A stretch of 64,000 nt of DNA from contig RFFC02000001.1 in assembly GCA_005518205.2 (NCBI GenBank), forward strand, positions 175,551 to 239,550, read 5' to 3'. A program made the translations under genes and the position numbers. A model generated the notes under the pieces. It saw nothing but the letters and a program-made list of their open reading frames with translations, did no database searches and was not told the DNA's origin. Positions 5,509 through 7,593 of the stretch are shown one piece after another (within the stretch, counting starts at the first letter, position 1; the number at the start of each line of letters is the position of its first letter). The DNA comes from Hormoscilla sp. GUM202. Lineage in GTDB: Bacteria; Cyanobacteriota; Cyanobacteriia; Cyanobacteriales; Desertifilaceae.

Positions 5509-6698
5509 AATTAATGTATTGGTATGCGATCGAACCTTTGGACGTGCTGCTGTTCCGAGACGCCAAACCTTTCAGTCCTGGAGATGGTTCTTGGGCGAAG
5601 GGACTATTTCCTCCTCTGCCCATAACCGTGTTTCAGGCGTTGAGGTCTGCTTTAAATTTCTATGGGGAAGGCCAAAAAAATAAAAAGCGCGATCTCGAGT
5701 TTGTCGGACCTTTCCTTTTGGATAGTGGGGAGAATCTTTGGCTACCGACTCCCAAGGATTTGTTGGCGATCAAAAAACGGCAGCCCACGGAGACAGAGAC
5801 AGAACAGCAAGATAACTCGGATGATTATACTGATGATTGGCACAGAACTTTGCGCTTACAACCGGCTCCGCGATCGGAAGGTATTTGGCAGCATTTGTGT
5901 TTTGACCGGGAGAGTCTGCCGCCGATGATTGCTCCTTTTGACAAACTGTCAAATAATGAAATTATCTTCCGACCTCATCCGTGGATAAAGGCCAATGCCC
6001 TGTGTCAATATCTCCGAGGTGAAAATCCCAATAACCCTTCTGACTTTCACGACGACCCCTGGGGTAAGCAAATTCTTCCCCACATTCACATGAAGTCTGG
6101 GGAACGACAGGTTAAGGATGAAGAGGGCTATTTTACGGAGGTGGCAATACGCTTAAAGCCCGGGTGGCGTCTGGTGGCCGGAATTAGCACTACATTAAAT
6201 TCTCCTAATGTGGTACGCTTGGGTGGTGAGGGACATCGGGTGATGATTTCTCGGTTGGATGAAGGTTCTAGGTTTAGTCGGCAATGGCAAAAGTTAGAAA
6301 AACATAAAAATCAGCAAACATCGAGTAAATTTGCGTATTTGCTGACTCCGGGCTTGGGGTTAATAGAAGAGAACGGTCAAGCTTTAAGATCTGGGGTTTA
6401 TCCCAGTTCTTGGAGGAAAATTTTGGCAGGCTGTGTGAGCGATCGGGCCTTACTTTGGGGCGGTGTTTCCCAGATCCGACGCAAACTGTCGGTGGGTGGG
6501 CAAGAGACGGTGGATCCAGAATTTGCTTTGCTTCCCCAACGGGCTTTCGTGCCACCGGGTACAGTCTATTTATTTAAGAGTATACCAGAATCTGATGCTT
6601 GTTTGTTGCCCAATCAGAGTCAGGGAAAATTTTGGTTAGAGACGTTCAGGAAGTTACATTACGGCATGCTTTTGTGGGGAAATAAAAATGACGCCTAA
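5499..6698 (+). CDS. cmr3: Cmr3, crRNA 5'-handle binding subunit
   Basis: Cmr3 is the Cas5-like RAMP that, with Cas10, grips the crRNA 5' tag at the foot of the Cmr complex. The N-terminus [19 protein letters not shown] followed by [18 protein letters not shown] is diagnostic for the family, and the 399-residue length is normal. The start is ambiguous: ATG at 5499 overlaps cmr2, while ATG at 5514 gives the conserved MYWYAIEP start just after the cmr2 stop, so I favour 5514. The gene overlaps cmr4 by 11 bases, which indicates translational coupling. Confidence 0.92.
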
Positions 6699-7593
6699 TC
6701 TTGTTTATCTGTATTTGCTCTCGCCACTCCATACTGGTGGGGTGAGTCAGGAAGGTAATGTTGTGGGTATCGCCCGGGAAGTCCATACTAATTTCCCCTA
6801 TCTGCCTTCCAGTAGTATCCGAGGACGCTTGCGGGCGGAAGTTGATTGCGATCGAGAAGATACAGATGCTAGCATTAAAGCCAGAATTCGTCGCATTCGG
6901 TTGTTTGGACCGGACTTGAAGGATCTTCAGGATCGGGGGTTTGTAGAGGATTATCAAATCGCTACCAATAGTACGTTGGGAAATTTGGAACAGGGGAGTA
7001 TTTGGATCGGAGATACTTCGCTTTTATGGATTCCTATTTCTTCCATCAGTCACGGGCTAATTTGGATTAGCTGTCCCCTGCTGTTGGAACGCTGGAGTCG
7101 CTTGCAGTTTGGTCAACAGATTGATGTGGCGGAATTGAGTAGTAATCTGGATAAGAAGGGGACGATTTATCTGAAGGATGCTTCCATTCCGGGAAGCAAG
7201 TTAAAGGATTTTCCCCAGGGGAAGACTTGGGAAGATTTTGTCCCGGGAGAAACTAGCATTAAGCAGGTGCTGGTGGTTCCCGATCGCTATTGCGAAATTT
7301 TGATTGAAATGAGTTTGTGGCGGCAAGTTAAGGTAAAATTAAATGAAAATAAGGTGGTAACTGATGGCAGCTTTCGTTATGAGGAAGCTATTCCCCCTGA
7401 CGCCCTGATGTACTTCTCTTGGGGCCTGACTGCCCAAACTAAAATCGATCGCCAGGATTATGATGATGATTTTAAGGAGTTGCAGAAGCCTTACGATGAG
7501 GATTTTCAAGAGTTATTAAAGGGACGTGATGTTTTGCAGTTGGGTGGACAGGAAAGTTTGGGACGAGGGTTTGTTAAACAATGGATGTCTTAG
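6688..7593 (+). CDS. cmr4: Cmr4, Cas7-like backbone, catalytic Asp apparently absent
   Basis: Cmr4 (301 residues) forms the helical backbone along the crRNA and in studied III-B complexes cuts target RNA every six bases. The N-terminus [14 protein letters not shown] and the block [17 protein letters not shown] mark the family. In the active enzyme the loop before R-E-x-H-T-x-F-P contains GVVDxPIQ with an essential Asp. Here the aligned residues are [16 protein letters not shown], placing Val at the Asp position. Target RNA cleavage is thus predicted to be lost, or supplied by another residue. The fold and assembly residues appear kept. It lies in the operon between cmr3 (overlapping) and cmr5 (88-base gap). 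Confidence 0.9.

Follow-up and report, generated by a model that had tools for sequence, protein, structure and literature searches.

Loss of the slicer aspartate from Cmr4 in a cyanobacterial clade of III-Bv CRISPR effectors

The window (the whole 64,000-nucleotide stretch of Hormoscilla sp. GUM202 DNA analysed here; G000:C1:175551-239550, from a cyanobacterial genome of 6.87 Mb) carries a III-Bv-type operon on the + strand (2461-9909; cas10, cmr3, cmr4, cmr5 and a Cmr6-Cmr1 fusion) in which the Cmr4 backbone lacks the aspartate used for target RNA cleavage (slicing). Across the sequences aligned, this loss is broader than the preliminary description stated: it is clade-wide and includes the Cmr4 of Synechocystis 6803. 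Absence of slicing is likely here because the type III complexes that have been tested need the Cas7/Cmr4 Asp to cleave their target (PMC11026444, PMC8682760). Our main reading, to which we give a probability of about two in three, is that the operon encodes a III-Bv effector that no longer slices but would still bind target RNA, switching on the Cas10 cyclase. The features referred to below, all on the + strand, are:

2461..5508, +, cas10/cmr2, 1015 aa (TIGR02577, Cmr2_N, palm2 and PADLOC Cas10b matches; motif alignments)
5499..6698, +, cmr3, 399 aa (Cas_Cmr3 PF09700, 145 bits)
6688..7593, +, cmr4 (Cas7 backbone), 301 aa, slicer Asp absent (TIGR02580; fold; alignments)
6748..6780, +, Cmr4 residues 21-31, the former catalytic loop, with the Asp deleted and new invariant residues (alignment)
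7372..7386, +, Cmr4 residues 229-233, thumb FRYEE (alignment; thumb role from PMC9368842)
7537..7569, +, Cmr4 residues 284-294, glycine-rich crRNA-binding loop, conserved (alignment)
7682..8179, +, cmr5 (small subunit), 165 aa (PADLOC Cmr5, 150 bits)
8176..9909, +, cmr6-cmr1 fusion, 577 aa (profile matches; alignment of 79)
11414..11449, +, lone CRISPR repeat without spacer, remnant of the adjacent array (L043 has five repeats there)
15487..16839, +, N-terminal part of a companion gene, P-loop kinase (AAA_33)-WYL/WCX (~700 aa and a single frame in relatives)
16957..17538, +, C-terminal (WCX) part, the other half of the split P-loop kinase-WYL/WCX gene

The cmr4 ORF is open, and its product matches the Cmr4 family model TIGR02580 at 110.3 bits (cut-off 87). 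This genome has a single Cmr4, its second and weak match being to the Cmr6 part of the fusion. At this locus, Hormoscilla sp. GM7CHS1pb and SP12CHS1 are the nearest named relatives (99% and 96% Cmr4 identity, respectively). The AlphaFold model (mean pLDDT 88) has the Cmr4 fold, with a VIA-align Z score of 19.6 to P. furiosus Cmr4, but loop residues 21-25 are predicted to be disordered (pLDDT <50). Such a model, proposed as a check in the preliminary description, supports the fold but, with this loop disordered, does not place an acid in the active position.

For comparison, the loop of P. furiosus Cmr4 is HPGSGTELGVVDQPIQRERHT, and the segment before its R-E block, HPGSGTELGVVDQPIQRE, contains Asp26. 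Counting back from R-E without gaps puts window Val25 opposite Asp26, as had been claimed; the window protein has one residue fewer between His15 and Arg30, and a gapped alignment places a deletion at the Asp column. Asp occupies this column in 17/17 Cmr4 of other groups (Thermus, Allomeiothermus, Aeromonas, Vibrio, Allochromatium, Azospirillum, Arcobacter, Paenibacillus, Thermomicrobium, Bacteroidota, Pyrococcus and three distant genomes from the phylum survey) versus 0/114 in the cyanobacterial set, which bears out the earlier claim of a Cmr4 without slicer Asp. A genome scan using patterns from the Cmr4 thumb and C-terminus, with the loop excluded, returned 80 loci, all from records titled as cyanobacterial and all (80/80) with the Asp-less loop. 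Sll7087, the Cmr4 of Synechocystis 6803 plasmid pSYSA and a cyanobacterial III-Bv protein of the kind proposed for comparison, is 48.5% identical to window Cmr4 and has the same Asp-less loop (HTGGTTQEGNLLGIARE).

A further survey, covering 292 genomes from the phylum, found this loop in relatives belonging to many families and added two more Cmr4 groups, 2 and 3. The group 2 loop reads GNIL(D/E)I(A/V)RE, with the acid one position off; that of group 3 reads GNLNLIFRD, with the Asp absent, and is accompanied by a short Cas10 (~550 aa with GGDD in L164-L171, L182, L185 and L186). In a Cmr4 tree built without the loop columns, which has some long branches and an unsure internal order, groups 1-3 form one cluster, separated from Asp-bearing Cmr4 of other origin by a branch with SH-aLRT 100. 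This topology is consistent with one ancestral loss or shift of the Asp in groups 1-3. Viral contigs searched with two alignments gave no Cmr4 relatives, and a literature search covering sources other than the full founding 2018 III-Bv paper found no statement of Asp loss in III-Bv.

Two other accounts were discarded. A single mutated gene or a sequencing error is ruled out by the 0/114 count and by the near relatives L042 and L043. A move of the Asp to the Cmr6-Cmr1 fusion was considered for window Asp94 (in GPED), but this position is Ser, Asn or Glu in relatives, and the alignment of 79 contains no conserved relocated Asp in the Cmr6-like loop.

Judged by conservation, the rewritten loop is constrained and not decayed. 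Across the main clade (group 1, n=88), no variation occurs at H15, T16, G17, G23, N24, I28, R30 or E31, and 87/88 have E22. R45, R49, E233, G286, G287, G292, R293 and G294 are also invariant, and all of these except E233 match crRNA-binding/filament residues of S. islandicus Cmr4, in which K46/K50 and a glycine-rich loop plus a basic residue bind crRNA or hold the filament (PMC9368842). Thumb residue 230 is Arg in 88/88 of group 1; group 2 has Trp there, group 3 has Phe, and Cmr4 of other groups has Trp (or Phe). Invariance of the loop and RNA-binding residues, combined with the changed thumb, suggests a backbone built for RNA binding whose cleavage site has been rewritten.

In the main rival reading, the same constraint would reflect slicing kept through another acid, with Glu22, perhaps together with Asn24, holding the metal in a rearranged loop and 6-nt cuts persisting. 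Conservation of both residues agrees with this, as does sister group 2, where an acid displaced by one position (Asp or Glu, in GNILDI/GNILEI) alongside a retained thumb Trp implies that the acid is able to move, and the disorder of the modelled loop leaves room for E22 or another acid as a substitute. We nevertheless consider this quite improbable: position 22 is Ala in L120, L031 and L032, one sequence is devoid of acidic residues between H15 and R30, E22 is absent from groups 2 and 3, and the thumb Trp, a helper in scissile-site placement, is replaced by Arg throughout group 1.

The cyclase motifs of window Cas10 are intact (DGD, 4549-4557, residues 697-699; GGDD, 4792-4803, residues 778-781), and GGDD is intact in 82/83 aligned relatives. 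Its HD dyad is lost, with LLRSG (2494-2508) versus LLHDP in pSYSA and relatives, and the second site is SY (in 2872-2898) versus SH in pSYSA. Palm sequences separate two Cas10 branches: A (pSYSA type), where HD dyad and second His are both kept in 44/53, and B (window), where both are lost in 26/30. HD status changes 14 times on the Cmr4 tree, a rough count derived from motif-pattern calls that fail on truncated ORFs; loss of the Cas10 HD looks recurrent, whereas absence of the Cmr4 Asp looks fixed. An extreme form is seen in L052 (Oscillatoria sp. SIO1A7), where Cas10 has NAD for DGD, SPSD for GGDD and no HD, with a normal Asp-less Cmr4 alongside; this system is predicted to retain none of the three known activities.

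Membership in III-Bv, suggested in the preliminary description, is supported by the operon content (Cas10/Cmr2, Cmr3, Cmr4, a Cmr5-like protein and the Cmr6-Cmr1 fusion), by the likeness of Cmr4 to Sll7087, by the form of the repeat and by Cas6, for which PF10040, the sole model used, gave no match in the window genome (the control matched in two genomes). Missing from that description were the clade-wide Asp loss, the loss of the Cas10 HD dyad, the thumb Trp change and, for this genome, the failure to find a CARF-HEPN. In the tree built without loop columns, window Cmr4 shares a group with Sll7087, not with other III-B. The window repeat folds into a 5′ stem-loop with an AU-rich 3′ tail, like the pSYSA repeat. 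A gene for RNase E, reported as the crRNA-maturation enzyme of III-Bv (Behler 2018, as cited), is present in the window genome; a 13-14 nt crRNA handle is a further trait of the subtype.

The III-Bv system of Synechocystis sp. PCC 6803 (CRISPR3, pSYSA) has the same gene order (cas10-cmr3-cmr4-cmr5-[cmr6-cmr1 fusion]) and likewise no cas6 of its own, with a repeat of stem-loop and AU-rich tail ending GGAAAC. It differs in keeping the Cas10 HD dyad and in having cas1, cas2 and a 39-repeat array at the locus, whereas the window has lost the dyad, its adjacent array is a single repeat and Cas1 was not found. CRISPR3 III-B confers plasmid immunity (PMC9676260). Cluster 4 of Microcystis aeruginosa FACHB-524 (III-B, Cmr1-6 fusion, Csx1) has the same subunits as the window, and its link to Asp-less Cmr4 runs through its repeat, which is that found beside L085 (Cmr4 loop HTGGTTQEGNLVGIARESHT), not through its own Cmr4 sequence. 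L085-type Cas10 keeps HD, unlike that of the window, which is also without a Csx1-type neighbour. Reconstituted Microcystis III-B with the Cmr1-6 fusion blocks T4 in E. coli without Csx1, and does so better with it; Asp-dependent Cmr4 slicing was assumed by the authors, not tested (PMC11855584).

The Vibrio metoecus III-B complex (VmeCmr) also has a Cas10 without HD nuclease, cyclic oligoadenylate output and long-lasting activation, but retains Asp26, cuts slowly and uses NucC instead of CARF-HEPN; its Cas10 lacks the whole HD domain, while that of the window has the N-terminal region and lacks the dyad. Cas7 proteins that have lost the Asp have been described in III-G, III-H and type VII (PMC12669027). 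In III-G and III-H the cyclase is inactive and HD is retained, the reverse of the window, and type VII, with a Cas7 devoid of the catalytic Asp like that of the window, has its RNA cut by Cas14.

In type III systems target cleavage is the Cas10 off-switch, as the target is released and cOA synthesis ends (PMC6053304, PMC9368842). In the mechanism proposed for the window, the complex would assemble on crRNA and then bind target RNA, which would switch on the Cas10 cyclase; 6-nt cleavage would not take place, bound target would not be released by cutting, and shut-off would presumably lie elsewhere (target decay, host RNases, ring nucleases or the effector itself). The branch of the window would act through second-messenger signalling alone; the pSYSA branch would add the HD DNase to it. 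Whether this extends to the entire lineage of cyanobacterial III-B systems in which Cmr6 and Cmr1 are fused, such that slicing was lost in its ancestor, binding became a long-lived Cas10 switch with another off-switch, and the window's branch turned signal-only as the DNase disappeared, we regard as evenly poised. Engineered slicer-dead Cmr4 in S. islandicus leads to autoimmunity, dormancy or death, although several bacterial Csm systems tolerate slicer loss (PMC9368842); given the S. islandicus outcome, a naturally slicer-less Cmr4 would need a safeguard.

One such off-switch could be another protein that cuts the target RNA, either an activated CARF-HEPN nuclease or host RNase E/J, ending the signal. 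A CARF-HEPN or related CARF protein adjoins the operon in 40/48 loci with full flanks (branch A, 28/31; branch B, 12/17), RNase E is encoded as noted above, and loss of Cmr4 in S. islandicus Cmr-beta is believed to be tolerated owing to a second RNase activity (PMC9368842). We rate this as unlikely, and removal of the target in this way would be compatible with a slicer-less Cmr4 rather than opposed to it. Many III-Bv loci also carry cas1, csx18, an array and a WYL/WCX protein. The last is frequent (e.g. near L047, L062, L085, L105, L109, L086, L035 and in the window) and in branch B is fused to a P-loop polynucleotide-kinase-like domain (~700 aa).

In the window genome, no CARF-HEPN was found by three models (PDLC01808, PDLC01031, PDLC01509) or by the protein of the closest relative. 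In a separate SAVED search the control gave no match. A prolonged Cas10 signal would consequently have no recognised receiver in this genome, and its output may already have been lost. Just beyond the cmr6-cmr1 fusion in the window, at the place of the CARF-HEPN gene of relatives, lie ~12 tandem copies of a 21-bp unit (TGACATGTCCCAGAGTAAGCA; 10254-10545). Two neighbouring, partly duplicated ORFs with GIQQGIQQ repeats (11896-13252) resemble Rpn/PD-(D/E)xK transposase-like proteins.

These absences allow the window copy to be seen as a stranded relic, its complex genes still readable, its acting parts lost and its missing Asp without consequence here. Besides CARF-HEPN, Cas1 was not detected in the genome; the adjacent array has one repeat versus five in sister L043, with a single 4-repeat array of the same repeat on another contig; the companion P-loop kinase-WYL gene is split in two (15487-17538); and in the close relative L042 (Hormoscilla sp. 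GM7CHS1pb) an insertion of ~2 kb (10909-12933) separates cmr4 from cmr5 relative to the window. Against this, all five effector ORFs are intact in the window and have dN/dS values of 0.25-0.42 versus L043, Cmr4 having the lowest, and the gene absences are provisional, the assembly being 95.9% complete in 70 contigs. Decay of this copy is possible, if on balance doubtful; it bears on the window genome and not on the clade, leaving the clade-wide Asp loss unexplained. For the clade, a non-slicing Cmr4 backbone that would still bind target RNA remains our preferred reading.

The residue loss spans a widespread group that includes a genetically tractable model strain, Synechocystis 6803; a standing question, how a type III system persists when it does not slice its trigger RNA, can therefore be tested directly. 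It also cautions against copying functions of cyanobacterial III-B systems from archaeal models, Asp-dependent Cmr4 slicing in Microcystis being an example. A natural non-slicing, cyclase-active Cmr complex, if this is what these loci encode, could serve RNA detection.

A dispersed element of ~90-150 bp, present in more than 12 copies in the window genome (L143-L156; contigs C4, C8, C9, C15, C17, C18, C19, C24, C28, C49 and C66), holds a CRISPR-repeat-like sequence, GTCCCTGTTTGTTGGGGACGGGAATTAATGGAAAC, that is nearly the III-Bv repeat. Transcripts of this element, if made, might act as competitors in crRNA processing.
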